Part shown: one piece after another, positions 11,824-28,659 of the stretch | How positions within the stretch are numbered: the stretch's first letter is position 1 | Layout of the letters: every line of letters begins with the position of its first letter | From: Flavobacteriaceae bacterium | GTDB lineage: Bacteria > Bacteroidota > Bacteroidia > Flavobacteriales > Flavobacteriaceae | Length of the DNA stretch: 64,000 bases | Direction: 5' to 3' | Assembly: GCA_019634365.1 (NCBI GenBank) | Contig: JAHQVM010000119.1 | Coordinates: 1 to 64,000, forward strand | Notes under the pieces: model-generated | What the model saw: the letters and a program-made list of their open reading frames with translations, nothing else | Told to the model about the DNA's origin: nothing | Databases searched by the model: none | Program-made: the position numbers and the translations under genes

Positions 11824-11835
11824 ATGTACTTTGTT

Positions 11836-11871
11836 TAGAGAAGAGAGAAGAGAGGAGAGAGGAGAGAATAA
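11836..11871 (+). repeat. Degenerate heptamer tract 5' of four-helix-bundle gene (locus 1)
   Basis: t AGAGAAG AGAGAAG AGAGGAG AGAGGAG AGAATAA: 7-nt period; purine-only from 11837 to 11868. Confidence 0.85.
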
Positions 11872-11907
11872 AGAAATGTAGTTGAACGAAATAGACGAAG
11901 TCAATTA

Positions 11908-12276
11908 ATGAAAAGAAAAAGGCATAATTACAAGAATTTAAAAATTTGGAAGTTGGCATTAGAAATCGCCATGGATGTTTCGGACAAGTTGGAAAAGTTT
12001 CCCAAATTAGAGCGGTACAGTCTTACATCGCAGATGAGTAGATGTTCTGTTTCACTTCCAAGTAATGTTGCGGAAGGATCTGCAAGAACTGCAAAAATGT
12101 TCAATAACTATTTGGACATTGCGATTGGGTCATCCTTCGAATTGCAAACACAACTTATTATAGCAAATCATAAAAAGTATATTAAAGAAAAAGAATTAGA
12201 AGAATTGAGTTTGAAAATTGATGAATGGCAGCGAATGACGTTTGTTTTTCAAAATAATTTGATAGGGAATAGATAG
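11908..12276 (+). CDS. Four-helix-bundle protein (S23 / 23S rRNA intervening-sequence protein family, Avd-related fold)
   Basis: 'YKNLKIWKLALEIAMDVSDKLEKFPKLERYSLTSQMSRCSVSLPSNVAEGSAR...FELQTQLIIA' matches the family signature. Confidence 0.93.
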   Translation: MKRKRHNYKNLKIWKLALEIAMDVSDKLEKFPKLERYSLTSQMSRCSVSLPSNVAEGSARTAKMFNNYLDIAIGSSFELQTQLIIANHKKYIKEKELEELSLKIDEWQRMTFVFQNNLIGNR

Positions 12277-12280
12277 GAGA

Positions 12281-12317
12281 TTCCCTGTTCTCTATTCTAT
12301 TTTTCTCTTGTCTTTTT
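12281..12317 (+). repeat. Pyrimidine-rich heptamer-like tract 3' of four-helix-bundle gene (locus 1)
   Basis: TTCCCTG TTCTCTA TTCTATT TTTCTCT TGTCTTT; TTCTCTA (12288-12294) is the exact reverse complement of TAGAGAA (11836-11842). Confidence 0.7.
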
Positions 12318-12334
12318 CAGTTACTAAAATCAGT

Positions 12335-13798
12335 ATGGATTACAACAAAATAAAAACATTCGGACAGTTAAAAGAGGCAGGTTATGAGCCCAAATCGGTA
12401 AAGGAAGAACTTCGAAGGAATCTGCTTCAAAAGTTGATGAAAAAGGAAGCTACCTTCGAGGGAATTCACGGATATGAATATACCGTAATCCCTGAATTGG
12501 AGCGCGCCATCCTCTCCAAACACAACATCAATCTTTTGGGATTGCGTGGACAGGCGAAGACACGATTGGCGCGTCAAATGGTATCTTTATTGGATGAGTA
12601 TATTCCTGTGGTGGAAGGAAGTGAGATTAATGACGATCCCTTTCAGCCTATTTCCCGTTATGCACGATTACTATTAGAAGAAAAAGGAGATGACACACCC
12701 ATCTCTTGGTTGCACAGGGAAGATCGCTTCGCCGAAAAATTGGCCACGCCCGATGTTACCGTGGCCGATCTTATTGGAGATGTAGACCCTATTAAGGCAG
12801 CCAATTTAAAATTGACCTATGCCGATGACCGTGTAATTCATTTTGGAATGATTCCCCGGGCGAACCGTTGTATTTTTGTGATCAACGAATTACCCGATCT
12901 TCAGGCAAGGATCCAGGTAGCACTTTTCAATATATTGCAGGAAGGAGATATACAGATTCGCGGCTTCAAATTGCGATTGCCTTTGGATATTCAATTCGTA
13001 TTCACAGCCAATCCTGAAGATTATACCAATCGTGGAAGTATCGTTACACCGCTAAAGGACCGAATTGGGTCTCAAATCCTTACCCATTATCCAGAGAGCT
13101 TAGAAGTGGCCCGTACGATCACTGAGCAGGAAACCGCATCTGCCATAGCAGAAAAGGAACATGTATATGTGCCAGAATTGGCCAAGGATATATTGGAACA
13201 GATCAGCTTTGAAGCACGTGAGAGTGAATTTATCGATGCCAAAAGTGGGGTGAGTGCCCGATTGAGTATTACCGCCTTTGAAAACCTGTTGAGTACGGCA
13301 GAGCGAAGGGCATTGCAAAATGGAGATGCAGAGACTACGGTGCGTTTAGGCGATTTTATTGGGATTATTCCTGCCATTACTGGAAAAGTGGAGTTGGTGT
13401 ATGAAGGGGAGCAGGAGGGAGCCGCGGAAGTGGCTCAAAGCCTTATTGCCGATGCAGTGGTAACAGAATTCTTAAGTTATTTCCCGAAAATAGAAAAACT
13501 GCAGAAGGAAAGCGATGTAGATCCGTACGATGAATTGGTTTCCTGGTTCTTCGAACAGCGCGGATTTGAGTTGCTGGATTCTTTATCGGATACAGAATAC
13601 AAAGAGAAATTGAATAGCATTCCACCTTTGGAAAGGTTACTTGCCAAATATGTACCCGATGTGACTCCTGATGATCGGCCTTTTTTTAAGGAATTCGTAC
13701 TATGGGCTTTGGCAGAGAACAAAAAGCTGAGCAAATATTACATGAGTAATGGGCTTCGCTTTAAGGATGTATATGGTGGGTATATAAGTGGATTATAA
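12335..13798 (+). CDS. MoxR/Mg-chelatase-type AAA+ ATPase
   Basis: 'HNINLLGLRGQAKTRLARQMV' Walker A-like; 'RCIFVINELPDLQARIQVALFNILQEGDIQIRG'; ATG at 12335 preferred over the TTG start at 12308 in the ORF track. Confidence 0.88.
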   Translation: MDYNKIKTFGQLKEAGYEPKSVKEELRRNLLQKLMKKEATFEGIHGYEYTVIPELERAILSKHNINLLGLRGQAKTRLARQMVSLLDEYIPVVEGSEINDDPFQPISRYARLLLEEKGDDTPISWLHREDRFAEKLATPDVTVADLIGDVDPIKAANLKLTYADDRVIHFGMIPRANRCIFVINELPDLQARIQVALFNILQEGDIQIRGFKLRLPLDIQFVFTANPEDYTNRGSIVTPLKDRIGSQILTHYPESLEVARTITEQETASAIAEKEHVYVPELAKDILEQISFEARESEFIDAKSGVSARLSITAFENLLSTAERRALQNGDAETTVRLGDFIGIIPAITGKVELVYEGEQEGAAEVAQSLIADAVVTEFLSYFPKIEKLQKESDVDPYDELVSWFFEQRGFELLDSLSDTEYKEKLNSIPPLERLLAKYVPDVTPDDRPFFKEFVLWALAENKKLSKYYMSNGLRFKDVYGGYISGL

Positions 13799-14557
13799 AA
13801 TCTCACGTAGTGATTTTATAACTAACATAATACCAGCAATTACCATAATGGCAATCAACCATCTGCGAAATGCCAATTTACTCATCCGGAACAATAACCA
13901 CTTTCCTATGAGGTTGCCCAATATTGCACCTAATCCTAGTGCGATACCAAATGCCCAAAGTTTTGGAGTAAGCAGCCCAAAAAAAACATAACCACTTACC
14001 TGAGCCAACCCTAAAAAGAACGATTGGGCAGCTTTTGTGCCCACGAGGTATTCTTTATCAATACCGGCATTGATGAGAAACGGATTTAAAATAGGTCCCA
14101 TTCCCCCAGTGAAGGTACCTATAATAGATATGAAAAGCCCCAAAGGGATGAAATACCAGAGCTTAACATTGAAGGAACGGTCTTTCTTACCAAAGCGATA
14201 TTGGAATAGCGCACTCACCAAGAAGAGCCCAACGAGTAATTGTATCCAGTAGATCTTTACTTCAGAAAAAAGCCAAGCAGCCAATAGTGCTCCTATCATG
14301 GCGGCTGGGACAAAGAACCAGAAAACTTTCCATACGATGTATTTCCAGAAGATAATGATGCGTGTGGGACGACTTATAAAGGCTCCTAGGTTAATAACCG
14401 GTGCGGTCTGGGACGCCCCAATAAGGAAATTTAATACAGGAATTTGCATCATAGCTCCGCCACCACCACTTATGGTAGATAAGGTGAAGGTAGCAGCACC
14501 CAGCAAAAAGAGGCCTACTAAAACCAATGGAGAAATATCGGCTAAAACAGTTTCCAT
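13793..14557 (-). CDS. TauE/SafE family sulfite exporter-like membrane protein
   Basis: Multi-TM; 'GGGAMMQIPVLNFLIGASQTAPVINLGAF', 'GTFTGGMGPILNPFLINAG'. Confidence 0.85.
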   Translation of the reverse strand: METVLADISPLVLVGLFLLGAATFTLSTISGGGGAMMQIPVLNFLIGASQTAPVINLGAFISRPTRIIIFWKYIVWKVFWFFVPAAMIGALLAAWLFSEVKIYWIQLLVGLFLVSALFQYRFGKKDRSFNVKLWYFIPLGLFISIIGTFTGGMGPILNPFLINAGIDKEYLVGTKAAQSFFLGLAQVSGYVFFGLLTPKLWAFGIALGLGAILGNLIGKWLLFRMSKLAFRRWLIAIMVIAGIMLVIKSLREIL

Positions 14558-14560
14558 AAA

Positions 14561-14584
14561 AAAACTGCCCCGAAAGGCAGTTTT
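14561..14584 (-). terminator. Intrinsic terminator downstream of LysM gene
   Basis: AAAACTGCC-ccgaaa-GGCAGTTTT hairpin with flanking A/T tracts. Confidence 0.7.
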
Positions 14585-14605
14585 AATTTACTATTTAATT
14601 TGGAA

Positions 14606-14983
14606 TTAGAGATTTGGAATCACCAATTCCTGTCCTGGATGAATCATATCCGGGTTATCCAAAATATTTCTGTTTGCTTCAAAAATCGCAGTGTACTTCA
14701 TTGGATCTTTGTAGTAGTGCTTGGCAATTTTGCTCAAGGACTCTCCACTTGCTACGGTATGGCGTGCATAATATGAATCGTCTGCCACTTTAATATCTGC
14801 TACAATATCGGCCGGGCTTTCACCACCAGCTTCTTTAATGGCATCCCAAAGGATGTTCTTTTCGTATTGGGTAGCAGCGGTACCACTAATGTGAAGTACT
14901 CCATTTTCTTCCCTTACGTCCCCGTCTTGAATTTGTAGTTGCTCCCCAAGATCCAAAACGCCTTGATATTTTGCTTTAATCAT
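14606..14983 (-). CDS. BON/LysM peptidoglycan-binding domain protein
   Basis: 'YYARHTVASGESLSKIAKHYYKDPMKYTAIFEANRNILDNPDMIHPGQELVIP' LysM. Confidence 0.9.
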   Translation of the reverse strand: MIKAKYQGVLDLGEQLQIQDGDVREENGVLHISGTAATQYEKNILWDAIKEAGGESPADIVADIKVADDSYYARHTVASGESLSKIAKHYYKDPMKYTAIFEANRNILDNPDMIHPGQELVIPNL

Positions 14984-15110
14984 GTTGTCGGTTTTAATAG
15001 ATTAATAGAATAGTATGTTAAATTTACAAATTTCAATCAAATTTTGTTCCTGTTTGGGCCTTTAATAAATTGTAAAGATTGGTTTTCGCCCATAGGCATG
15101 GTTTTACCGT

Positions 15111-16169
15111 CTACTGTGTGTTGGGAAACCTTCCAGCATCCACATCCTTTATAAACGAGACAAGCCCAGGAAAAAAGTGTTCCTGATCGTCGTATTGTGA
15201 CAAGTGACTGCCATTGGGGCAATGCAGGTATCGTCCATTCATAACTTCATTGGCGACCCATTCCATTTGTTTGGGATCCATGGTATCGAATTGGGCACCG
15301 ATGGAAAGTGTGGGTACTGTGATTTCTTTCAATCGATCCTTTACATCCCAATCTTTCAAGGTGGCATCCCCTTTAATACCAAATTCACTAGGGCCTTGCA
15401 TAGTAATATAAACATCGGGATTTAAATGATTGAATCCTCGGTTGATGGAATTGGGCCATTGCTCCATGGGTATGCGAATTACATGTTTGGGATAATAGTG
15501 TTCTACAATAAGTCCAAGATATTCCTCGTTTCCATAATCTTCGGCTTCTTCATACTTCATGATCGTGACCAACACCTCTTCGGGGAGTTGCGGTGCCAAC
15601 ACTTCCTCGTTGTATTTCATGTAGTCGGGAATGGAAGGAACCATGTTCGAAATAATTAGTCCCTTTAAGTTCTGTTGGTATTTCAATGCATATTCCATGG
15701 CCAAAATTCCACCCCAGGATTGACCAAAGAGGTAGAAATTATCCGAATTGAGTCCCAAGGCTTTTCTTACCTGCTCTACTTCTTCAACAAAACGTGCTGT
15801 ATCCCAAAGGCTCAGATCGTCTGGTTGATCGCTGTAATAACTCCCCAATTGATCGTAGTAATAATACTCAATGCCTTCCTGCGGAAAGTATCCGTCGAAG
15901 CTTTCATAGATTTCATGAGTCATTCCGGGACCACCATGAAGGAGAAGCACTTTAATGGTGGGATTATTCCCAACTCGTTTGGTCCAGACCTTAAAATCGC
16001 CCTTGGGCGTGGTAATGGGAATCATTTTTATGCCTCCTGTGGCTTGATCGTCCCGTCCTTCGTAAGACCAATAATCGATTGTGGTTGTTTCTTCTACTGA
16101 AGTTTCTTTGGGATTGTTACATGATAGGCCTATGATTAATACGACCGTTAGGGAAAAGATTAGTCTCAT
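15111..16169 (-). CDS. Proline iminopeptidase-family alpha/beta hydrolase lipoprotein
   Basis: Lipobox 'VLIIGLSC'; 'VLLLHGGPGMTHE', 'NFYLFGQSWGGILAMEYAL'. Confidence 0.9.
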   Translation of the reverse strand: MRLIFSLTVVLIIGLSCNNPKETSVEETTTIDYWSYEGRDDQATGGIKMIPITTPKGDFKVWTKRVGNNPTIKVLLLHGGPGMTHEIYESFDGYFPQEGIEYYYYDQLGSYYSDQPDDLSLWDTARFVEEVEQVRKALGLNSDNFYLFGQSWGGILAMEYALKYQQNLKGLIISNMVPSIPDYMKYNEEVLAPQLPEEVLVTIMKYEEAEDYGNEEYLGLIVEHYYPKHVIRIPMEQWPNSINRGFNHLNPDVYITMQGPSEFGIKGDATLKDWDVKDRLKEITVPTLSIGAQFDTMDPKQMEWVANEVMNGRYLHCPNGSHLSQYDDQEHFFPGLVSFIKDVDAGRFPNTQ

Positions 16170-16171
16170 CT

Positions 16172-16942
16172 CTATGGGTTTTTAAAATTTTCCGAAAGGT
16201 AAGTTACAACTTCCTCTTGAGATAAGGCAGAAAACTTAGCGTAGCGTTTTTCACTGTGCACATCCACAATCTCGTCCAAAGCATCCTGTATCAATTCTTT
16301 ATTTTTCCATCGATTGAGGGCAGCGACCACTTTGGGCAGGCAACCTTTCTTATAGCTTATTTGTCCTATTACATGTACCAACGTGTCCCGCACCCGTCGG
16401 GTTTCATCATACTGAAGGGTTTCCAGTAGCGGAAGTACATCTTCTGGGTGGGTTCTTCCCCGTAATTCTATACCATGGCAAATTTCGCGTCTAATTTCCT
16501 TATCGGGGTGATTTAAATAGCCTTGGGCCCACTTCAATACAGGTTTGGGGTTTTTCTGCCCCATTTTCTTCACCGAACCAATCACTGCATTGCGCACTTT
16601 GTGATGGGTATCGAATAGCGCTTCATCGAAGAATTGAACCACGCTTTCGAACTGAAACATTCCTATTTCCCCGGCTGCATTCACGACTGTTTGCCGAATG
16701 TGTTCCTCCTCATGTTTTTTGAGTTGGGATAAGGCAAGCAATACCTTGGGGCGTAACGAACTTTCGTGGTTGTAAATCCGCCCAATGCCTTGATAGGCAG
16801 CTTTTCGGATATAGGTATCGTCGTCGCCAAAATAGGTGAATATGTGATCCCATTCACCATGCATGATAGCTTGTTGCAATTCATATTGAATATCAGCTAC
16901 CTTTTGTGCTCTCTCCGTTTTGGAAAGGTCGTAAAACCCCAT
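16172..16942 (-). CDS. HEAT-repeat / DNA alkylation repair-like protein
   Basis: Repeated helical HEAT-like units 'DDTYIRKAAYQGIGRIYN', 'THHKVRNAVIGSVKKMG', 'PDKEIRREICHGIELRG'. Confidence 0.75.
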   Translation of the reverse strand: MGFYDLSKTERAQKVADIQYELQQAIMHGEWDHIFTYFGDDDTYIRKAAYQGIGRIYNHESSLRPKVLLALSQLKKHEEEHIRQTVVNAAGEIGMFQFESVVQFFDEALFDTHHKVRNAVIGSVKKMGQKNPKPVLKWAQGYLNHPDKEIRREICHGIELRGRTHPEDVLPLLETLQYDETRRVRDTLVHVIGQISYKKGCLPKVVAALNRWKNKELIQDALDEIVDVHSEKRYAKFSALSQEEVVTYLSENFKNP

Positions 16943-16944
16943 GA

Positions 16945-17376
16945 TTAATAATTGCTTTTAAAGGTAAAGGCATGTTCGCTTTCACCATGCTCGCGAAGGT
17001 ATTCCAAGCGTTTTTTTCCTTCTTCTATCGTCGGGATGTGGCCTTCGTCTACATACCAAAGCACCATATGCATTTTCATCATTTTTGAAAACCATTCTTT
17101 TCTCCTTTTGAAGATTTCAACATGACCAGATTGATAAACGAATTGGAAGAGGCTTTCTTTGTCCTTCCAAACACTCATATTCACAAGCATGGCGTCATCT
17201 TCATAGGCTTGTATATCGTATGCGTGATCTGAATCATCGCTTTTCAACCGCCATATAAATCCAGGGTATTCGTCGGCTAGGGCATTGATACGATCAATGT
17301 TATTAACGAAATCGGCCATGACGGGACTATCCATGTTGTCCAGGGCTTCGGCAATATTGAATTGAGCTAAGGGCAT
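16945..17376 (-). CDS. DUF3291 domain-containing protein
   Basis: 'LAQFNIAEALDNMDSPVMADFVNNIDRINALADEYPGFIWRLKSDD...MSVWKDKESLFQFVY'. Confidence 0.85.
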   Translation of the reverse strand: MPLAQFNIAEALDNMDSPVMADFVNNIDRINALADEYPGFIWRLKSDDSDHAYDIQAYEDDAMLVNMSVWKDKESLFQFVYQSGHVEIFKRRKEWFSKMMKMHMVLWYVDEGHIPTIEEGKKRLEYLREHGESEHAFTFKSNY

Positions 17377-17626
17377 GTTTTAGAGTTTTTCAGAAAGATA
17401 CTTAAAAGTGGAAAATGGAGCATAAAAAAGGCACCTCAATTAATATGGTTCTGGTTGACGCAAACCTTACATTTCCGTCTGGGGAGATGACCAAATCCTT
17501 AATCTTGGTGCCGATATTATATAGTCGTAAAACTAATTTTTCGTAAAGTCGAATCCAAATATAGCTCAAAGGATTCGAAACTAAAAATTACAAAGACTTA
17601 TTTAACCTTTTGGCCTTGTAACACGC

Positions 17627-18199
17627 TTACATTCTTGATTTTATGTTCAATTTGCAGAGGCGTATGATCTCAGAAATACGCTTATTGCGCGTTTCTTCCC
17701 TTTTGGCACTGTGCAACCAACTTAAATAACTCTTTCTGTAACCAAAGGAGAAGTTCTGATAATTCTCGAAAGCCAATGGGGAAGCCTTGAAAGCTTTTTT
17801 TAAGTCTTCCGGAATGACTCCGTTTTCCACATCATCCATGGCTGTCCATGTTCCAGTTTGCTTCGCTAATTCGATCATTTTCCATCCACTTTCATGAATG
17901 AGCCCTTCCATTTCCAACGCAACAATGTAGGATTTGTTAAGTTTACTCCAATTGCTTTTTGGGTTTCTCGGACAGAAATATTGCCTTCGCTTGCCGGCTC
18001 CCAAACTTTTAACCGTACTGTCTATCCAGCCAAAACACAGGGCTACCTTAACGGCTTCCTCCCAGCGCATGGTAGGAACACCGGTTTCCAGTTTGTAGAA
18101 GATTAGATAAATTCCCTTGGGATAACGGTCATAGTTCTGTAAGAGCCAATCACGCCATTCCACGTCCCTTGGAAAGTATAGTTCGGGTTTTTCTTCCAT
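17627..18199 (-). CDS. YdeI/OmpD-associated family protein
   Basis: 'LYFPRDVEWRDWLLQNYDRYPKGIYLIFYKLETGVPTMRWEEAVKVALCFGWIDSTVK'. Confidence 0.88.
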   Translation of the reverse strand: MEEKPELYFPRDVEWRDWLLQNYDRYPKGIYLIFYKLETGVPTMRWEEAVKVALCFGWIDSTVKSLGAGKRRQYFCPRNPKSNWSKLNKSYIVALEMEGLIHESGWKMIELAKQTGTWTAMDDVENGVIPEDLKKAFKASPLAFENYQNFSFGYRKSYLSWLHSAKREETRNKRISEIIRLCKLNIKSRM

Positions 18200-19818
18200 T
18201 ATGGATTTACTCGTTCTGAATCTACTAAGAAATCAATTTTTATACTGGCCGCTTTAATGGTTTGGTCAAAGGTTTTCATATTCCATTCGGATTTGGGAAA
18301 AATCCATTCTTCCTTATCATTTATTAGCATGATTACAGGCATATCGAAGTTGTCGATGATATTTGTATACCTAAATTTTAAATCTTTCCCCTCGATGGAA
18401 TATTCAATCTTCGGGATTTGGGTAGTTCTGAGGTATTGCTCCCAGAATTCCGTAAGATCGATCCCAGTTTCTTTGCTCATAAATGCTTCCACTTCTTGGG
18501 AAGAAACGGTTTTGTGGTAGAATTCTTGGTTTATTTTTTTTAGAATACTTCTCCATTTTTTGTCATCTTCCAATAATTGCCTAAGGGTATGAAGAATATT
18601 GGCGCCTTTGTAGTACATGTCGCCACTTCCTTCGTTCCTTACTCCGTAGGTTCCTATGAGAGGGCGATCATTTTGAATGAGCTTGCGGGTTCCTACCACA
18701 TACTCGCTGGATGCCACAGGTCCGAAATGATAATCCAGGTACAAATTTTCGCTATAGGCCGTAAACCCTTCATGAATCCACATATCGGCCACATCTTTGT
18801 TGGTAATGTTATTGGCAAACCATTCATGTCCAGCTTCGTGAATGATAATGAAATCGAATCGCAGTCCCCAGCCCGTATCGCTAAGATCACGCCCTAGGTA
18901 TCCGTTTCCATAACGATTTCCATAGGTAACACTGCTTTGATGTTCCATCCCCAAATAAGGAACTTCCACCAGTTTAAAACTATCCTCGTAAAAGGGGTAG
19001 GGGCCAAACCAATATTCGAAGGCATTCATCATCATAGGAACTTGCTCGAACTGGACTTTCGCACGCTCCAAATTTTCACGAAGTACCCAGTAATCCAAAT
19101 CAAGCGGTCCCTTTAGACCTTCATGTTCTTCAGAAAAGTTAACGTAATCCCCAATATTTACATTCACTCCGTAATTGTTGATAGGGTTCACCACCTTCCA
19201 ATGCCATGTTTTGGTGGTTCCCTGATCTGTGGTTTTTTCAAGCCTTCCATTGCCCACTGCAACTAGATTGGCAGGGGCAGTAATGGCTAAGTCTACTCCT
19301 TTATCCGGTTCGTCTTGGGGATGATCCTTGTTGGGCCACCAGATGCTTGAGCCGATTCCTTGATTGGAGGTGGCGATAAAATGATTGCCCGCACTGTCTT
19401 TTTCCCATGAATAGCCACCATCCCAAGGGGGACGAATGGCCTCTTTTGGAGTGCCGGAAAAGTAAAGTGTGATTTGTCGTGTTTGACCTTCTTTTTGCTT
19501 TTTCAACTTTATGTAATGAATAGCACCTTTTCGCTTTACAGAAAGCTCTTTACCATTTTGGATGGCCTTATCAATCTTCATGGGCTCCTGAAGGTCTATC
19601 TGCATGGTTCTTTTATTATCCAGCACCGTATAGGTTATGGTATTGATTCCCTTTATGGATTTACTTTCGGGGAAAACCTCGACCGATAAATCATAATGCT
19701 GAAGATCCCACCAAGCCCTTTCTGGTGTAATGGATCCCATAAGCCGATCCTGCTCGCTAAAATTCTGTGCACTTATGGAGAATGTAAGAAGTAATAGTAT
19801 GTGCGTTGTCCATTTCAT
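18199..19818 (-). CDS. M1 family metallopeptidase
   Basis: 'IIIHEAGHEWFANNITNKDVADMWIHEGFTAYSENLYLD' HExxH-18-E. Confidence 0.93.
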   Translation of the reverse strand: MKWTTHILLLLTFSISAQNFSEQDRLMGSITPERAWWDLQHYDLSVEVFPESKSIKGINTITYTVLDNKRTMQIDLQEPMKIDKAIQNGKELSVKRKGAIHYIKLKKQKEGQTRQITLYFSGTPKEAIRPPWDGGYSWEKDSAGNHFIATSNQGIGSSIWWPNKDHPQDEPDKGVDLAITAPANLVAVGNGRLEKTTDQGTTKTWHWKVVNPINNYGVNVNIGDYVNFSEEHEGLKGPLDLDYWVLRENLERAKVQFEQVPMMMNAFEYWFGPYPFYEDSFKLVEVPYLGMEHQSSVTYGNRYGNGYLGRDLSDTGWGLRFDFIIIHEAGHEWFANNITNKDVADMWIHEGFTAYSENLYLDYHFGPVASSEYVVGTRKLIQNDRPLIGTYGVRNEGSGDMYYKGANILHTLRQLLEDDKKWRSILKKINQEFYHKTVSSQEVEAFMSKETGIDLTEFWEQYLRTTQIPKIEYSIEGKDLKFRYTNIIDNFDMPVIMLINDKEEWIFPKSEWNMKTFDQTIKAASIKIDFLVDSERVNP

Positions 19819-19836
19819 AGATAGCGTTCCAATTTT

Positions 19837-21171
19837 TTAATTTCTGAATGTTCCTTCGGGAAAAGCAACCACACTTTCATGGCCATCCTTGCCAACGGAA
19901 GCGACCCCAAAGAGATAATTATCAATAACAATGCCTTCGAGCGTAAAGGAGGAAACATCGCCCACATACCTGCTATTATCCCATGTTGGTGATGTGGTAT
20001 CCCTCCAATAGATTTTGTATCCGGCGGCACCATTTGCCTTTTCCCAGCGCAATTTGGTAGAGGGTTCTACAATACCACCGATTTCCACGTTTGTGGGTGG
20101 TGGTGGAGCTGAAGCCAAACTTGCCATACTAATGGCATTCACGGCAGTCAGTTTTGCGGCATAATCGAAATTTACGAATTTTAATTTATCACCATATTCG
20201 ATCCCATCTTCCATACGTATATCCTGATGCTGTTGTGTATAATTTTCGTGTGCCTCCATGATCCGAATCCCTGGAAAGCCTACGTCACAGAACGGACGGT
20301 GATGTCCGCCACGACCAAAACGGTCCAGTCTGTAAACGAGCATTGGGTTCATTTCTGGCATATAAGTTTGGGTCGTTTTGTGTACATAACGTGCCAACTG
20401 ACGCGAAATTCCGTCTACCTCACCACCTCTATACCTTCTTCGTCGACGATCGTCTTCCGATTCGGTGGGAGGCACCGGTTCGCTGAAAATTCGGAAATCC
20501 CGGTTGCTTATCACCCCATCAACGCCCGTAATATTTCCAATCATATCATTATTGAGCACGCCAATAATCTCCCAATTGTTCTCTTTGGCGTAATTGGCAA
20601 ATCCCTTACCGCCAAACAGGCCTTGTTCTTCGCCACTAAGCCCCAAATACACGATACTGTTCTCGAACGAATATTGACTTAGAATCCTTGCTGCCTCAAT
20701 GGTTCCGGCCATACCACTGGCATTGTCATTGGCGCCTGGGGAATCATCGGTATAATTGTTAGGATCGCTAACACGGGAATCGATATCACCACTCATGATG
20801 ATATACCGATTAGGGTATTTGGTTCCCTTCTGAACGGCAGCTACATTCACTACCCAAACATCCTTGGTAATGCGTCCGTTGGTGCCCTTGGCAACCAAAT
20901 CCCTTTGGTAGAATACATCCAAACATCCGTTGCAATTATCGGAAACCTTATCGAATTCGGACTTGATCCACCTTCTGGCAGCTCCAATTCCTCTGGTATT
21001 GGATACCGTATCGCTTAGGGTATGACGGGTACCAAAATTAGCCAATATGGTAATGTCTGTTTCGATGCGCTCGGTTGAAACGGCTTCGATGATTTCGTAC
21101 AATTTGGAATCGGTTTGCGCATTTAGCGGAACTAGACAAAGAAAGCCAAGGAAAAGTAGAAAATTCTTCAT
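19837..21171 (-). CDS. M28 family Zn-peptidase with C-terminal FnIII-like domain
   Basis: 'IIMSGDIDSRVSDPNNYTDDSPGANDNASGMAGTIEAARIL', 'YLGLSGEEQGLFGGKGFA'; C-terminal 'PTNVEIGGIVEPSTKLRWEKANGAAGYKIYWR'. Confidence 0.9.
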   Translation of the reverse strand: MKNFLLFLGFLCLVPLNAQTDSKLYEIIEAVSTERIETDITILANFGTRHTLSDTVSNTRGIGAARRWIKSEFDKVSDNCNGCLDVFYQRDLVAKGTNGRITKDVWVVNVAAVQKGTKYPNRYIIMSGDIDSRVSDPNNYTDDSPGANDNASGMAGTIEAARILSQYSFENSIVYLGLSGEEQGLFGGKGFANYAKENNWEIIGVLNNDMIGNITGVDGVISNRDFRIFSEPVPPTESEDDRRRRRYRGGEVDGISRQLARYVHKTTQTYMPEMNPMLVYRLDRFGRGGHHRPFCDVGFPGIRIMEAHENYTQQHQDIRMEDGIEYGDKLKFVNFDYAAKLTAVNAISMASLASAPPPPTNVEIGGIVEPSTKLRWEKANGAAGYKIYWRDTTSPTWDNSRYVGDVSSFTLEGIVIDNYLFGVASVGKDGHESVVAFPEGTFRN

Positions 21172-21215
21172 GGTGTATCAAATTCACTAAAATTAGTAAA
21201 AATTACAGCACCATA

Positions 21216-21668
21216 TTATTCTCGCACGAGAACTATGGTCTCTGGATATGGCATGGATATCAAATCGCCATTATGTCGCAACGAATCCAGGGTATATACC
21301 AAGCAGCAGGTTGTTTCACGGGTAGAATAATCGAACCTCAAGGTGTCTACTTCATCCGTGTCTAGCTCTAGGAAATAAGTTCCGCCACTTAGAATACTAT
21401 CAAATCGGATTAGCAAACGGTTATCGGTTTCAGACGATAAGGTTCTGATATATTGGGTTGAGGTAGGGTTGTATAATTTAAAAGAGTCCCTTACAAATAC
21501 AGTATTAATCAAAGGATTTCCGTTAGGATCCTGATAGTCTAACAATACAGAATTTGGAGGACAGAGGACGGCAGAACAATCTGGAAATTTATCTTCTTCT
21601 CCTTCACAACTCAAAAGGAGTGTGAGGGAAACCAAAAGGGTAAGGGAAAAACGTCGTAGCAAGTTCAT
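21216..21668 (-). CDS. Hypothetical lipoprotein
   Basis: Signal peptide with lipobox 'TLLLSC'; downstream of and co-oriented with the 21670 gene. Confidence 0.65.
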   Translation of the reverse strand: MNLLRRFSLTLLVSLTLLLSCEGEEDKFPDCSAVLCPPNSVLLDYQDPNGNPLINTVFVRDSFKLYNPTSTQYIRTLSSETDNRLLIRFDSILSGGTYFLELDTDEVDTLRFDYSTRETTCCLVYTLDSLRHNGDLISMPYPETIVLVRE

Positions 21669-21669
21669 G

Positions 21670-23193
21670 CTATTGAATAAATGTAACTTTCGAAATCAAA
21701 CCATTTTCTACTTCGTAAATCGCAATGGCAGCATAATTCTGCCCATTAATGGTTAAGAATTCTTCGTCGATGACCTTATTACCGATGACAATCCTATTTT
21801 TAATGGTGCAGTTTAAATCTGGGGTAGATTCAAAGAACTTACCGTAGTTCTCCTTCATGGAAGTTTGCCCTTCGGACATAAATCGCTGTGGAAAAGAATA
21901 GAGTTTAATATCCTCGGAATACGTAGCCATGAACCCATCAATATCCCGGGCATTGTAAGCTTTCAGTTGTTTATCCACGATAACCGTTGGATCTTCCGTG
22001 GTTTTTCTATTGTGTATAAACGTCATGGACTGAATGCTCCCAGCCCCTGTCTCGTATATGGTCGCTTGATGAAAGGTGTCGTTATTTACAGTTCCCGTTT
22101 CTTCATCGACTACGATATTTTGGTAGACCATTCTATTGACAACCTTCACAGTTAAGTTTGAGTTGTTGTTCATGAACTGTTCGTAACCAGCGCGCATGGT
22201 GGATCTACCCACTGAAGTAGTGTCAGCGGGAAAATTGCGAACTACCACATCCTCTGAAAAAGCATTGGCAAAATCATCCAAACGCCCTTCATTGTAGGGG
22301 GCAATATGGGACTGTACTATTTCACCGGGCAAGAGCCCTTCAGCAGCCAGAGCTAATTTTTTACCCGAAGGACTCACGGCCATTCGTGTAATATTTTCGA
22401 TCTTATAGTTGGAGAGATCGGCTACTTGTTTCCAGTCTCCATTTCCAAACAGATCGTATAGAAAAAGTTTGTTGCCACTACCAATTAGGAGTTTGGCACC
22501 ATCTAACCAAATGTGGTCTTGAACACCAATGGGAAGCTGGGTCACAAAAAAACTCTCCCTACTTTCCATGTCCAATTGATAGATGTCCCAATTTCCTTCT
22601 TCGTTTAATGAGGTGTAACTCATGGCATTGGTTGCGGGAACTTTATGGATAGAGCGTCCAGAGCTTTCCAAAATGGTGTCACTTGTCTGCGAAGGAATGT
22701 CACTAATCACCAAATCCAATCGATCTCCGGCCAAAACGGAGCTCAACAAGGTATTTTCATCGTAGTGTGCATAATAGGCAACCCGCAGGTCCTTGATGTA
22801 TTCTTCTGGCTCCTTTTCAGTTTGATAACGATATAGGCGTTGTTTTCCATCGGGATCGAGGCGAACTGCCGATAATCCTTTTGTATCCGCTATGGGTTGT
22901 GGTGAATATTCGCCTCCTTCGGTAGCAGGGAATAGCCAAGTTCCTCTTTTGGAATTGGGATCGTATAAGGCAATATCGGTTTGATTGTTGCGCGTCTTGG
23001 CGAGTAGCAAATAACCCTCAGGGGTAAAGAAGGGTTGGTTATCGTAACCCTTGTTATTGGTTATGTTTTCGAAATTTGAAACTTTGAATGATTCTTCCGA
23101 AAATGAAAGATCCATTACAAACACTTCGGTATTCACTTGTCCCAAAGCCGTGAAGGCCCAAAGACCGTAGAAAATGGCAATTACATGTTTCAA
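21670..23193 (-). CDS. TolB-like beta-propeller protein fused to two tandem SnoaL/NTF2-like domains
   Basis: 'GYDNQPFFTPEGYLLLAKTRNNQTDIALYD' propeller; two C-terminal repeats 'YNEGRLDDFANAFSEDVVVRNFP...' and 'YNARDIDGFMATYSEDIKLYSFP...'. Confidence 0.8.
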   Translation of the reverse strand: MKHVIAIFYGLWAFTALGQVNTEVFVMDLSFSEESFKVSNFENITNNKGYDNQPFFTPEGYLLLAKTRNNQTDIALYDPNSKRGTWLFPATEGGEYSPQPIADTKGLSAVRLDPDGKQRLYRYQTEKEPEEYIKDLRVAYYAHYDENTLLSSVLAGDRLDLVISDIPSQTSDTILESSGRSIHKVPATNAMSYTSLNEEGNWDIYQLDMESRESFFVTQLPIGVQDHIWLDGAKLLIGSGNKLFLYDLFGNGDWKQVADLSNYKIENITRMAVSPSGKKLALAAEGLLPGEIVQSHIAPYNEGRLDDFANAFSEDVVVRNFPADTTSVGRSTMRAGYEQFMNNNSNLTVKVVNRMVYQNIVVDEETGTVNNDTFHQATIYETGAGSIQSMTFIHNRKTTEDPTVIVDKQLKAYNARDIDGFMATYSEDIKLYSFPQRFMSEGQTSMKENYGKFFESTPDLNCTIKNRIVIGNKVIDEEFLTINGQNYAAIAIYEVENGLISKVTFIQ

Positions 23194-23208
23194 TGGACCT
23201 CTCCTAAT

Positions 23209-24933
23209 TTATTTCCGCTTCTTGCGAATAATTTTTCTTCTTTTCTTCTTTCGTTGTCCGATAAAATCGATTTCAATAATGTAGGATCCCTCCGCTAAAT
23301 CAACACTACTAAGATCTATCGAGCTAATACCGGATGCCGTAAACTGCGTTGTGAATACGATACGCCCCTGCAAGTCATAAATAGTGATTTTGGTTGCAGT
23401 TCCGGAGCTTAACCCTTTAATAAAAAGGGTATCAGTGAAAGGATTAGGGAAAAAGGTAAGGTCATCTGGCCGCACATCGGCTACATCCAGAATAGCTTCA
23501 TTTTCATATAAAATAACGACATCTTCCAGTTCGTCTACCAAAGTAATATCAAGTGCTCCGTCATTATTACGATCATGTAAAATCGCGCAAGATCCAGCTT
23601 GCACCGCATCATACGTAATAGGATTGGCAAAATTTCCACCACCGATATTTTCGTACAAGGTAAAATCTGCTGTACCAAAATTACTGGCTATAAAATCCAG
23701 ATCTTCATCTCCATCGATATCACCCACATCTATAGCTAAAGAAAAATTACCCACTGCATATTCATTTGATACTGTTAGGTGGCCTGTTCCATCTCCTAAG
23801 AGAATACTCACCTCTCCCGAAGAGGAATTTACAGAAACGATATCAACGTTTCCGTCATTGTCCATATCACCGGCTGTTAGCATCCACGGTGATCCGGAAA
23901 TGGAGACAACGTCCGTTTCGGTGAAATTTCCCTGACCATCATTCAGAAGCGTAAGCACATTACTGCTATTAAAGCCTCCAATGGCCAAATCTTGGATTCC
24001 ATCGTTATTCAAATCTATGGCAGCTATGGATGTTTCACCATTAATGCTGGAATCTGTAGTTATAGGTGCATTAAAGTTTCCTGTACCATCGTTAATCAGG
24101 ATGGAGTAGGTACTAGAAGTCCTGTTGGCTGTTGCCAGGTCGTCCCAACCGTCGCCATTTACATCGATCACAGCGATACCGCGAATCCCGAGATCGGCAT
24201 CATAAACCACTTCAGAATTGAACAGGTTGGCATCATTGCCCATAAAAACACTCACATTGTCATTTTGAATATTCCCTATGGCTACATCGATCATACCGTC
24301 ATGGTCAAAATCGGATCCTTCGTTCGTGCTTGGCTTATTTCCATTGGGCATTGCGAAAGAAGTAAAATCATCATACCCACCTTCTCCATCATTTAGAAAA
24401 ACGCGGATGTCATCGGAGTTCTCATTGACAACTACCAAGTCCGTGGACTCGTCATTGTTTACATCACCGGCATAAGCACCATAGCATTGAATAAAAGTTT
24501 CACCTGCTTCCCTCACAGAAAATTGATCAACCAAAGTTTGGTTTAGGGTGCCCGGCAATGTCTTTATCCAATAATTGTAAGCGTAGCCATTATCCAAAGC
24601 ATCGCCATTATCATTTTCTATTGCCTTAGTAAGCCGTACAGTGATCCATTCACCATAAAAGAAATTACGTTGTGGAGTAAATGTAACTTCGGTGTTACTG
24701 GCATTCAGACTAAGGGTTCCATCCATAGGTCCAGACCAGCGGCCAAAAACCATAAAGGAGTCTGAATTTACCGTCGCTGGGTTCAATGCCTGATCGAACG
24801 AAATTACGATGGGTGCTCCCGGTTCTGAAGCCATAGTTTGTCTGTTAGGGGTCATTTCTTGCACGAGTGGTGATTGTGCAAAACCCAAAGAGGCTAACAA
24901 ACAGAGTGTTAGGGTGCTAGTAAAAAATTTCAT
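23209..24933 (-). CDS. FG-GAP/VCBS repeat protein with T9SS C-terminal sorting-like domain
   Basis: 'DVNNDESTDLVVVN', 'DVNGDGWDDLATAN', 'DMDNDGNVDIVSVN' repeats; C-terminal 'FFPNPFTDTLFIKGL...GSYIIEI'. Confidence 0.9.
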   Translation of the reverse strand: MKFFTSTLTLCLLASLGFAQSPLVQEMTPNRQTMASEPGAPIVISFDQALNPATVNSDSFMVFGRWSGPMDGTLSLNASNTEVTFTPQRNFFYGEWITVRLTKAIENDNGDALDNGYAYNYWIKTLPGTLNQTLVDQFSVREAGETFIQCYGAYAGDVNNDESTDLVVVNENSDDIRVFLNDGEGGYDDFTSFAMPNGNKPSTNEGSDFDHDGMIDVAIGNIQNDNVSVFMGNDANLFNSEVVYDADLGIRGIAVIDVNGDGWDDLATANRTSSTYSILINDGTGNFNAPITTDSSINGETSIAAIDLNNDGIQDLAIGGFNSSNVLTLLNDGQGNFTETDVVSISGSPWMLTAGDMDNDGNVDIVSVNSSSGEVSILLGDGTGHLTVSNEYAVGNFSLAIDVGDIDGDEDLDFIASNFGTADFTLYENIGGGNFANPITYDAVQAGSCAILHDRNNDGALDITLVDELEDVVILYENEAILDVADVRPDDLTFFPNPFTDTLFIKGLSSGTATKITIYDLQGRIVFTTQFTASGISSIDLSSVDLAEGSYIIEIDFIGQRKKKRRKIIRKKRK

Positions 24934-24994
24934 AGGGATAATTTTTTAGCAATTTACAAAAAAAGTGATTAAAAGGAGAATTTAACTTGCCTTG

Positions 24995-25036
24995 AAAACC
25001 CCAGTAATTACTAGGGTTTTAAATCCTAAAACCCTA
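24995..25036. promoter_or_regulatory. Overlapping inverted repeats upstream of FG-GAP gene
   Basis: AAAACCCCAGTAATTACTAGGGTTTT (26 nt, one mismatched pair) overlaps TAGGGTTTTA-atcc-TAAAACCCTA-type perfect 10-bp inverted repeat. Confidence 0.55.
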
Positions 25037-25115
25037 TCGATTTAGTAGTTAATAGTCAGATTCAAGACAATTTCCTTACGAATTGGGAAATGATACCATA
25101 AGATTGAAAAAAAAA

Positions 25116-25139
25116 ACCGCCCCCAGAAATGGAGGCGGT
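25116..25139 (-). terminator. Intrinsic terminator of beta-oxidation operon
   Basis: ACCGCC...GGCGGT hairpin followed on - strand by T-tract. Confidence 0.75.
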
Positions 25140-25189
25140 ATTCAACTAACTAACCAAGATTCAAAATTGAAGATATTTGAATCTTTTCT

Positions 25190-27001
25190 TTAAAACGGAT
25201 ACGTATTCTCCGCTGTTACTTTGTCTGCTATTTGATTACGAAGCGCTACTACATTCGGCATGTTCTGGTACTTCGTGAAACGCTTCAGTCCCATAAGCAT
25301 CATGCGTTGTTCGTCACCTTCTGCAAAGGAAATGATTCCTTCTTTGGCTTTTTTCACAATGATATCTACTGCGTTGTATAAATACAACTGGGTCATTGCC
25401 AATTGAGATTGTTGCGCATCTTCACCGTAACGCTTGATGTTCTTCTCTGTACGCAAGATAGCACTTTCTGCCATATATATTTCAATCAGAATATCGCTGG
25501 CAGCCATTAAAAGTTGTTGGTGTTCTTCGAGAGCTGGGCCATATTTCTGAACGGCACTTCCTGCCACCATGAGGAAAACCTTCTTTAGTTTGGCCAGAAT
25601 GGCTTTTTCTTCTGAAAGCACTTCCGAATAATCCGGTGTTTCGAAAGATGGGATCGCCATCAGCTCATTCGCTACTGCCATAGCAGGCTCAAGTAGATTA
25701 ACATGTCCTTTCATGGCCTTCTTCACCAACATCCCAACGGCCAACATACGATTAATTTCATTGGTTCCTTCATAGATTCGGGAAATACGGGCATCTCTCC
25801 AGGCCGCTTCCATCGGTGTATCTGCGCTAAAGCCCATTCCTCCGAAGATCTGAATTCCTTCATCCGAGCAATTCTGAATGTCTTCGGAAACAGCTACCTT
25901 TAATATGGAACATTCGATTGCATATTCCTCAACACCCTTCAGCTCGGCTTCTTGATGTGTATTTCCTTCACTTGTTCGTATGTTGATCCGGTCCTCAATG
26001 TTTTTGGCTGCCCTGTAGCAAGCACTTTCACCCACATAAGCACTGGTAGCCATTTCGGCTATCTTGGCCTTTATGGCTCCAAATTTGGCAATTGGGGTTT
26101 TGAACTGAATACGCTCATTGGCATATTTCACGGACCCATCGATCACACGACGTTGTGCGTCCAGACAAGCCGCAGCCAACTTAATTCGCCCTACATTTAA
26201 GGCATTCATGGCAATTTTGAATCCATTTCCTCTTTCAGAAAGCATATTCTCCACAGGGACCTTCGTTTCACTGAAGAAAACCTGACGGGTAGAGGAGGAG
26301 TGAATCCCCAATTTATTCTCTTCTTCTCCGAGGGAAATACCGTTTTCCGGATCGTTTTCAACGATAAACCCAGTAATGTTTTTATCATCTTCGATACGTG
26401 CGAAAACGATAAAAATATCACAGAAGCCCGCGTTGGAAATCCACATTTTCTGTCCACTAATGCTATAGTATTTACCGTCTTCGGAAAGTACGGCTTTTGT
26501 TTTGCCACTGTTGGCATCACTTCCAGCTCCCGGTTCGGTTAAGCAATAGGCGCCAAACCATTCGCCGCTGGCCAATTTTGGCACGTACTTCTGACGCTGT
26601 TCTTCGGTTCCGTACAAAGTAATGGGCATGGTTCCAATTCCTGTGTGCGCTCCAAAAGCTGTGGCGATAGAGCCGGTTGCACCAGAGATATAATCGCAAA
26701 CCAACATGGTGGTTACAAATCCCATTCCCAATCCGCCATAGGCTTCTGGGACAGCGATTCCCAATAGTCCCATTTCTCCTGCTTTGCGCATGACCTCTTC
26801 GGTAAGCGCATAGTCTTTCTTCTCGAAGCGTTCCTTGTGTGGCCAAATTTCACGGTCTACGAATTCCTTTACGGATTCCTTCATCATTTTCTGCTCTTCC
26901 GAAAAGTCCTCGGGTGTAAATACATCTTCACAAGGGGTTTCCGTTACCAAGAATTGACCTCCCCTTAGGATGTTCTCTTTTATGTTATCTAATGTTTCCA
27001 T
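25190..27001 (-). CDS. Acyl-CoA dehydrogenase family protein
   Basis: 'AYCLTEPGAGSDANSGKTKAVLSEDGKYYSISGQKMWISNAGF', 'GIQIFGGMGFSADTPMEAAWRDARISRIYEGTNEINR'. Confidence 0.95.
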   Translation of the reverse strand: METLDNIKENILRGGQFLVTETPCEDVFTPEDFSEEQKMMKESVKEFVDREIWPHKERFEKKDYALTEEVMRKAGEMGLLGIAVPEAYGGLGMGFVTTMLVCDYISGATGSIATAFGAHTGIGTMPITLYGTEEQRQKYVPKLASGEWFGAYCLTEPGAGSDANSGKTKAVLSEDGKYYSISGQKMWISNAGFCDIFIVFARIEDDKNITGFIVENDPENGISLGEEENKLGIHSSSTRQVFFSETKVPVENMLSERGNGFKIAMNALNVGRIKLAAACLDAQRRVIDGSVKYANERIQFKTPIAKFGAIKAKIAEMATSAYVGESACYRAAKNIEDRINIRTSEGNTHQEAELKGVEEYAIECSILKVAVSEDIQNCSDEGIQIFGGMGFSADTPMEAAWRDARISRIYEGTNEINRMLAVGMLVKKAMKGHVNLLEPAMAVANELMAIPSFETPDYSEVLSEEKAILAKLKKVFLMVAGSAVQKYGPALEEHQQLLMAASDILIEIYMAESAILRTEKNIKRYGEDAQQSQLAMTQLYLYNAVDIIVKKAKEGIISFAEGDEQRMMLMGLKRFTKYQNMPNVVALRNQIADKVTAENTYPF

Positions 27002-27031
27002 GATTATATATGCTCTAAGATCTTACGTGTA

Positions 27032-28222
27032 TTAATTTAAAAATTCGAATATTCCTGCGGCTCCCTGACCGGTTCCCACGCACATGGTCACCATTCCGTA
27101 TTGCCCTTGCATATTGCGCTTGCGCATTTCGTCGAACAATTGAACCGAAAGCTTAGCACCGGTGCATCCCAATGGATGTCCTAAAGCAATGGCTCCACCA
27201 TTTACATTTACGATGTCTTGGTTCAAGTTCAATTCACGAATTACTGCCAAACTCTGAGATGCAAAAGCCTCGTTGAGCTCAATTAGATTGATGTCGTCCT
27301 GTTTTAACCCAGCTTGATCCAATGCCTTTGGGATAGCTTTTACAGGGCCAATTCCCATGATTCTGGGTTCTACACCGGCTGCTGCATAGTTCACCATTCT
27401 GGCGATGGGCTCCAGATTGAGTTCTTTTACCATGTCTTCGCTCATCACCAAAACGAACGCGGCGCCATCACTCATTTGGGAGGAGTTCCCTGCGGTAACA
27501 CTTCCACCTTGGGCAAATACGGGTCTCAGTTTTCCCAACGCCTCCATATTGGTCCCTTTTCTGGGGCCTTCATCTTTGGTTACGGTATAGGTTTTAGTTG
27601 CCTTCTTACCATTTTCATCAATGTATGTTTGTTCTACCTCAATAGGGACAATCTGATCCTGAAAACGATCCTCAGCCTGAGCTTTCAAAGCTTTCATATG
27701 ACTATTGTAGGCAAATTCATCCTGGTCTTCACGGGAAACCTTGAACTGGTTGGCTACAGCTTCCGCCGTATTTCCCATTCCCCAATAATAATCCTCGTGT
27801 CCAGATTTGATAAGGTCGTAGTTCAGTTCTGGTTTGAACCCCGTCATAGGCACGGAGCTCATACTTTCAGATCCACCGGCAATGATACAGTCGGCCATAC
27901 CTGCTTGAATCTTGGCCGTAGCAATACCAATGGTTTCCACTCCTGAAGAACAGAACCGATTTACGGTTACTCCCGGTACATCCACGATATCGAGGCCCAT
28001 TAATGAAATAAGCCGGGCCATGTTGAGCCCTTGAGATCCTTCTGGCATGGCATTACCCACGATGACATCGTCGATTCGTTTTTTATCCAATTGAGGAAGC
28101 TCTTTCATCATATGTTCAATCGTTTCGGCAGCCAATTCATCGGCCCTTTTGAAACGGAACACACCTCTTGGTGCTTTTCCAACGGCGGTTCTATATGCTT
28201 TTACTATATATGCTGTTTTCAT
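27032..28222 (-). CDS. Acetyl-CoA C-acyltransferase (thiolase)
   Basis: '[17 protein letters not shown]', '[20 protein letters not shown]', '[19 protein letters not shown]'. Confidence 0.95.
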
Positions 28223-28230
28223 GTTTCTTA

Positions 28231-28262
28231 TAGTATTGAGTTAGTAGTATTGAGTATTGAGA
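28231..28262 (-). repeat. Degenerate heptamer tract 3' of four-helix-bundle gene (locus 2)
   Basis: On - strand TCTCAATACTCAATACTACTAACTCAATACTA: CTCAATA-type 7-nt units; contains TGAGTATTGAGA (28251-28262) and TTAGTAGT (28241-28248) on + strand. Confidence 0.85.
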
Positions 28263-28268
28263 TTATCA

Positions 28269-28616
28269 CTATAACTTTAACTGAAAAGAATAGTTCATCT
28301 TTTGTATTTCAATACATAAATCAATTATGGGTTTCACTTTATTTTTTTCTTTTAGGTCCAATTCTGTTAATAATATCAATTGCGTCTGCAACTCGTAGGC
28401 AGAACCATTTGCGATTCCTAGGAAATGCTTGAATTCATTATTCGAATTTCTTCCTGCCCCTTCAGCTATATTTGAAGGAATCGAAATTGCACTTCTTTTT
28501 ATTTGCGATATGAGTCCATATTTTTCGCTTTTGTCTACATTAGAAACCAATTCATAAACTTGCTTCACCAGTTTCATAGATTTTTGCCAGAGTATTAGGT
28601 TTTCAACTTTATGCAT
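28269..28616 (-). CDS. Four-helix-bundle protein (S23 / 23S rRNA intervening-sequence protein family, Avd-related fold)
   Basis: 'LILWQKSMKLVKQVYELV...YGLISQIKRSAISIPSNIAEGAGRNSNNEFKHFLGIANGSAYELQTQLIL'. Confidence 0.93.
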   Translation of the reverse strand: MHKVENLILWQKSMKLVKQVYELVSNVDKSEKYGLISQIKRSAISIPSNIAEGAGRNSNNEFKHFLGIANGSAYELQTQLILLTELDLKEKNKVKPIIDLCIEIQKMNYSFQLKL

Positions 28617-28620
28617 AAAA

Positions 28621-28659
28621 TCTAAGTCTCAATACTCATATCTCATTACTCACTACTAA
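28621..28659 (-). repeat. Degenerate heptamer tract 5' of four-helix-bundle gene (locus 2)
   Basis: On - strand TAGTGAG TAATGAG ATATGAG TATTGAG ACTTAGA; TCTCAATACTCA (28627-28638) and ACTACTAA (28652-28659) are exact reverse complements of tracts at 28251-28262 and 28241-28248. Confidence 0.88.

Follow-up and report, generated by a model that had tools for sequence, protein, structure and literature searches.

The stretch of DNA analysed here, referred to as the window, comprises 64,000 nt from a Flavobacteriaceae bacterium (GCA_019634365.1, contig JAHQVM010000119.1, positions 1-64,000, forward strand) and raises the question of how two genes of the S23 type came to lie between the genes of two operons, each enclosed by short repeats with a period of seven nucleotides. 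A preliminary description, made from the letters of the window, reported two such genes that encode diverged homologues, share the orientation of their hosts, are bordered by 7-nt tracts and have neither reverse transcriptase (RT) nor transposase beside them. All of this was recovered: both ORFs are flanked by co-oriented host genes with 7-nt tracts on either side, the S23 genes are diverged and no transposase or RT is found in cis at the window copies (Table 1). In profile searches the ORFs score far above the cut-off of PF05635 and above that of TIGR02436, while Rfam gave no match and no rRNA within the window, PADLOC returned no match linking S23 elements to defence and phage records returned no match either. 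The preliminary description also held that the 5' and 3' tracts are complementary at both loci, which is borne out for copy 2 alone (p=0.003; left lag-7 z=3.4) and family-wide, whereas copy 1 taken alone is weak (p=0.14 in dinucleotide shuffles; left lag-7 z=2.3, lag-5 z=3.7). If each whole element is folded as RNA, arm pairing closes the fold (z -2.2 and -2.5).

Table 1. Features of the two S23 loci of the window and of their host genes.
Feature	Position	Strand	Remark
Copy 1 upstream host gene, VWA-domain protein	10663..11823	+	PF13519
Copy 1 left arm core, AGAGAAG-type heptads	11837..11869	+	pairs with 12280-12313
Copy 1 S23 / 23S_rRNA_IVP gene, 122 aa, pI 9.6	11908..12276	+	PF05635 E=1.6e-29
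Copy 1 right arm core	12280..12313	+	complement of left arm
Copy 1 downstream host gene, AAA ATPase	12335..13798	+	
Copy 2 upstream host gene, 3-hydroxyacyl-CoA dehydrogenase/enoyl-CoA hydratase, fadB-like	28656..31064	-	
Copy 2 left arm core, TGAGTAT-type heptads	28619..28650	-	pairs with 28232-28264
Copy 2 S23 / 23S_rRNA_IVP gene, 115 aa, pI 9.2	28269..28616	-	PF05635 E=1.3e-38
Copy 2 right arm core	28232..28264	-	complement of left arm
Copy 2 downstream host gene, thiolase, fadA-like	27032..28222	-	

S23 genes number six in the window's own genome (G000) and occur in 40 of 60 relatives, with a maximum of 17. At 91 complete intercistronic S23 (TIGR02436/PF05635) loci of Flavobacteriales the flanks match themselves in excess at a lag of seven (+0.085/+0.097, compared with -0.012/-0.008 for 341 control genes) and also at lags 14 and 21, with essentially no excess at other lags. 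When left flanks are scored against the reverse complement of right flanks, pairs from one locus reach 18.4 and pairs from different loci 10.4 (z=27), the true partner has a median rank of 3 among 91, and arm scores of at least 14 are reached by 71 of the 91 elements versus 10 of the 341 controls. The comparison of flanks with those of control genes, proposed in the preliminary description, thus reveals enriched 7-nt periodicity and complementarity at the S23 loci and not in the controls. A scan that took in all phyla and viral contigs yielded a second set, of 95 elements, with the same values; the fadB-fadA junction is over-represented in it because the elements were found via similarity to copy 2. 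This set spans Bacteroidota, Clostridia, Treponema (Spirochaetota), a Desulfobacteraceae, a Patescibacteria contig and viral contigs, and the pattern is also present on plasmids of Cyanobacteria. The heptad-arm pattern around S23 genes is confirmed as real and general. S23 genes with heptad-like flanks are also carried by IMG/VR contigs classed as viral (L188-L190, L193, L194, L196).

In 84 of the 91 loci both neighbours are co-directional with the S23 gene, and 88 of the 91 lie after a co-oriented stop codon; against a background in which 70% of adjacent gene pairs share a direction, a randomly oriented insertion would be expected to do so in about 35% of cases. The heptad arrays are in phase with the stop codon of the host gene and agree with it in stop type (0.102 vs ~0.035 in other registers), and TAG is over-represented among the stops of the host genes (37/88 vs 38/181, p=0.0005). 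An antisense element lies between nrdB and nrdA on a Nostoc plasmid (Cyanobacteria). A further S23 hotspot of the fatty-acid operon that includes fadB-fadA is its fadA-fadE junction (e.g. L027, L049, L033, L198, L222), and some genomes carry elements at both junctions. In some relatives (L127, L128, L108, L170, L171) short hairpin repeats of other, unrelated kinds (CTCGAG..CTCGAG type; CATTCCTGCGAAGGCAGGAATC type) stand at these same operon junctions, so that the element-bearing junctions look like general landing sites. On the Anabaena sp. 90 plasmid pANA02 (L319:298-2546) cas6 and cas4 are separated by an S23 element whose GGTGACA/GGGAACA heptads extend over more than 300 bp, and such cas-gene insertions may be the reason why the 23S rRNA IVP has been listed as a CRISPR-linked gene (PMC10910872). 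S23 genes found in operons, for example between cas genes, may hence be insertions rather than functional partners, which calls for caution.

Comparison of the same junctions across genomes reveals occupied, empty and decayed states. The VWA/AAA ATPase junction that harbours copy 1 is clean in several relatives, with 1-2 nt between the genes or an overlap. At the fadB-fadA junction, compared in 30 genomes, nine have a spacer of 1-5 nt and six a full element of 424-463 nt, others carrying gene-less hairpins of 70-130 nt with 7-nt arms or decayed remnants. Between mraY and murD two genomes of a genus carry the element and the spacer of a sister species measures 2 nt; a remnant of 130 nt that still includes the S23 C-terminus is left in another genus, and in most others the genes lie 0-2 nt apart. 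Since S23 divergence at mraY-murD is similar to murD divergence, this copy is old, and the sister species has either lost it or acquired an empty allele in its place. Several insertions are old and vertically inherited, the nearest S23 relative resides at the same site in 75 of 104 cases, and the 91 Flavobacteriales loci include no recent copy pair at different sites (closest 77.6% DNA identity). The old insertions show no general trace of a target duplication.

The best-resolved event is found at site A of cyanobacterial plasmids, which is filled in Trichormus plasmid C and a Scytonema plasmid and empty, at ~98% identity, in Microchaete, Tolypothrix, Aulosira and Nostoc plasmids. The insert consists of 423 bp and a second copy of GTAAT, a 5-bp duplication that contains the upstream stop codon. 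The Trichormus and Scytonema copies differ in length by exactly 14 bp, that is, two heptads, a Nostoc plasmid keeps the left arm and a truncated S23 gene, and in Brasilonema the site is occupied by a gene-less hairpin of the same heptad. Site C provides a second pair of filled and empty alleles, at which a TTCTA repeat is counted only as consistent with duplication because it overlaps the usual element end, so that the target duplication is unambiguous at site A only. Insertion and empty-site pairs, which the preliminary description had suggested to look for, are thus available at fadB-fadA, at mraY-murD and on cyanobacterial plasmids; this presence/absence polymorphism, together with the sense orientation, upholds its proposal of a family of IVS-like elements dispersed in intercistronic spacers. 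Comparison shows that the whole element enters as a unit, at the best-resolved site together with a 5-bp target duplication that overlaps the stop of the upstream gene; it then resides in the host operon, usually in sense, and decays into truncated copies and gene-less hairpins.

The arms themselves have a history that can be followed. Elements at three plasmid sites (A, C and D) share ~78-81% DNA identity throughout, S23 gene and arms together, so the arms are carried along with the element. Own arms match each other better than they match same-site arms of other species (15.4 vs 10.9, n=36; 16.0 vs 10.7, n=16), which indicates that both arms change together, and arm similarity tracks S23 similarity across different sites (rho 0.146 vs a maximum of 0.110 in 500 permutations). 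Slippage, suggested earlier, is supported in 7-nt steps by the length difference at site A and by Coxiella strains (PMC4990558). On these comparisons, the arms vary in 7-bp steps, diverge in concert on the two sides and move together with the element. Selection for RNA pairing, also put forward in the preliminary description, did not hold up as the cause of arm matching: G-U mismatches are rarer than A-C mismatches (187 vs 257, p=0.001), and in the absence of a wobble excess RNA wobble tolerance does not explain the match. We infer that the match between left and right is upheld by templated repair between the arms, through hairpin strand switching, together with slippage.

Period-7 arrays also occur by themselves. 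A stretch of 400 kb from one copy-rich genome (G015) contains ten such arrays, all intergenic and none near an S23 gene, some of them directly after stop codons and without a partner arm, and no arrays were seen at lags 4, 5, 8, 10 or 11. Two spacers of the same genome (L290:11149-11240 and L290:14528-14629) combine a left-type array of one heptad with a right-type array built on a different one, as though two elements had been joined once their insides were deleted. The window's own genome (contig C96, L310:9577-9660) contains a long solo composite array (TATTAGAT.. followed by AGTCAAT..) with no S23 gene nearby.

To our knowledge, the intervening sequences (IVSs) of 23S rRNA genes have been known for more than 30 years without a known origin or mobility mechanism. 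On plasmid AZO_p2 of Azospirillum lipoferum (L324) an S23 ORF is located within the 23S rRNA gene (RF02541), and its flanks carry GGATGAC/AGAGGAC heptads and their complement, extending an rRNA helix that we take to be helix 45. In Coxiella, GACAGAT heptamers lie beside S23p in the 23S IVS and vary in number among strains, and the ends of the IVS form a 28-bp stem that is cleaved by RNase III in vitro (Warrier et al., PMC4990558). Because the same architecture occurs inside a 23S rRNA gene and heptamers are present in Coxiella, the classical rRNA IVSs and the operon-junction elements are read as one kind.

The window S23 proteins are sequence relatives of the solved structures 2GSC and 2RLD (PDB 2GSC E=3e-19), and their match to PF22296 (bAvd) is weak (27.1/23.7, under the cut-off of 40). 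A median dN/dS of 0.12 over 56 pairs points to purifying selection, so the S23 protein is more than mere ballast. Its basic charge and kinship with Avd lead to the prediction that it binds the arms. A partner enzyme was sought among three families. RVT_1 proteins, searched for in 61 genomes, are absent from the window genome, whose assembly is ~89% complete, and from the near-complete copy-rich genomes G014 (11 copies), G015 (17) and G036 (8), and RT and S23 counts do not correlate across genomes (rho 0.06). Y1 transposases correlate overall with S23 (rho 0.47), yet they are missing from several copy-rich genomes, G006, G035, G036 and others being without them, and DDE_Tnp_1 is missing in G000, G015 and G036; none of the three was found in all copy-rich genomes, and each was rejected as the partner.

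Several explanations compete for these observations. Chance or low-complexity sequence can hardly be credited as the source of the structure: copy 1 alone lacks significant complementarity, but the statistics over 91 and 95 loci with controls, and the flatness of the other lags, refute this reading at family level. On a reading that goes back to the preliminary description, heptads would arise afresh at every target through templating or slippage, the unit reflecting the insertion site, and the shared register and stop type of arrays and host stops as well as a weak resemblance of the final 7 coding bases to the array of their own locus (p~0.001) would agree with it. However, the right side shows no match to the target, related elements at sites A, C and D carry common heptads and arm similarity follows S23 similarity across sites, so that beyond a weak left-side signal the proposal is largely refuted and very improbable. 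A beneficial host gene whose arms form an mRNA stem that regulates or protects the operon would accommodate the low dN/dS, the fadB-fadA and mraY-murD copies common to several species with a divergence like that of murD, and the frequency of nearest relatives at the same site; it is nevertheless rather improbable, because the element is distributed patchily and sister species have cleanly empty sites, because gene-less hairpins and truncated copies exist, because the element is found in operons unrelated to one another, in plasmid-borne operons and in rRNA, and because the arms lack a wobble excess. We also regard as unlikely a retroelement, in which excised stem RNA and S23, as a relative of Avd, would be copied by an RT in trans and inserted. 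The weak PF22296 match, the sense bias, insertion into transcribed sites and the release of rRNA IVS RNA by RNase III in vitro (PMC4990558) speak for it, but no RVT_1 protein exists in the four genomes named above, RT and S23 counts are unrelated and antisense copies occur in Cyanobacteria (nrdA-nrdB).

The window loci are likely to be copies of an IVS-like mobile element of ~0.4 kb that consists of a heptad left arm, the S23 gene and a complementary right arm. Support comes from period 7 and locus-specific complementarity in both sets and not in controls, single junctions that are occupied in some genomes and empty, gene-less or truncated in others, the clean event at site A, the three related elements with their arms at three plasmid sites, the S23 gene with complementary heptad arms inside 23S rRNA, the poorer match of arms from the same site in other species, the constraint on S23, and sense orientation beyond the co-directional background. 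Against it stand the lack of a recent different-site copy pair in Flavobacteriales and the age of several insertions, the single unambiguous target duplication, the solo arrays away from S23 genes, and the lack of a mobilising enzyme common to all copy-rich genomes among the three families searched. Such a mobile element would be moved by an enzyme acting in trans, probably as DNA, and its insertion would be tolerated where cutting of the transcript is harmless, as at operon junctions and the tips of rRNA helices. The basic, Avd-like S23 bundle would bind the arms as hairpin DNA or stem RNA, and its binding might help mobility or tame the insertion.

If so, the rRNA IVSs would be the rRNA-resident tip of a family residing in many operons of Bacteroidota and Cyanobacteria. 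The operon family supplies many natural insertion/empty pairs and defines ends and target duplication, by which mobility and S23 function become testable, and it offers a source for puzzling heptamer repeats. In the open-access literature, no account was found of S23 genes that lie outside rRNA between complementary heptad arms; in the accessible papers, heptad arms on both sides as a rule, a locus-specific unit and the target duplication are not described for IVSs.

Among known systems, the 23S rRNA IVSs of Coxiella and Leptospira (PMC4990558) share the homologous S23 gene, complementary ends forming a stem, a total length of ~0.43 kb, patchy distribution and strain-variable tandem heptamers beside the ORF, and the Azospirillum 23S copy has the full heptad-arm build. 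The window elements likewise combine an S23 ORF with stem-forming complementary termini (complementarity being family-wide and weak for copy 1 alone) and sporadic presence with empty sites. They differ in lying between protein genes, the rRNA location being that of the related Azospirillum copy, and are therefore filed as IVS-like rather than as rRNA IVSs. MITEs and REPIN/RAYT systems resemble them in small size, inverted ends, gene-less derivatives and a helper in trans, whereas S23 elements have no fixed terminal sequence and no obligatory Y1 transposase; the period is conserved and the terminal sequence is not, with a 5-bp duplication at one clean site. S23 is distantly related in sequence to Avd of diversity-generating retroelements (bAvd, PF22296) and, like it, is a basic protein with a four-helix bundle fold, but S23 loci lack RT, template and variable repeat (TR/VR). 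The short tandem heptamer repeats of Cyanobacteria (STRR) and the TAACTGA repeats, the latter reported from Beggiatoaceae, Cyanobacteria and Bacteroidetes (PMC4679880), are intergenic heptamer arrays near starts or stops with 7-nt strain indels and empty sites in relatives. Unlike the S23 elements, they were described as direct repeats of one sequence, presumed regulatory, with no S23 gene or complementary arm reported. Tandem intergenic heptamers, their hallmark, are present at the window loci and the TAACTGA sequence itself is absent from the window arms; by their appearance, TAACTGA repeats and cyanobacterial heptamers would be arrays of this kind observed without the gene, which is a lead. 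Somewhat tentatively, the S23 elements could represent a separate, multi-phylum class of minimal mobile elements, whose ends would be recognised through their 7-bp period and self-complementarity instead of their sequence. Their single gene would encode a non-enzymatic, end-binding S23 bundle, and the rRNA IVSs, the heptamer repeats of Cyanobacteria and the TAACTGA repeats would all be members or debris of this class.
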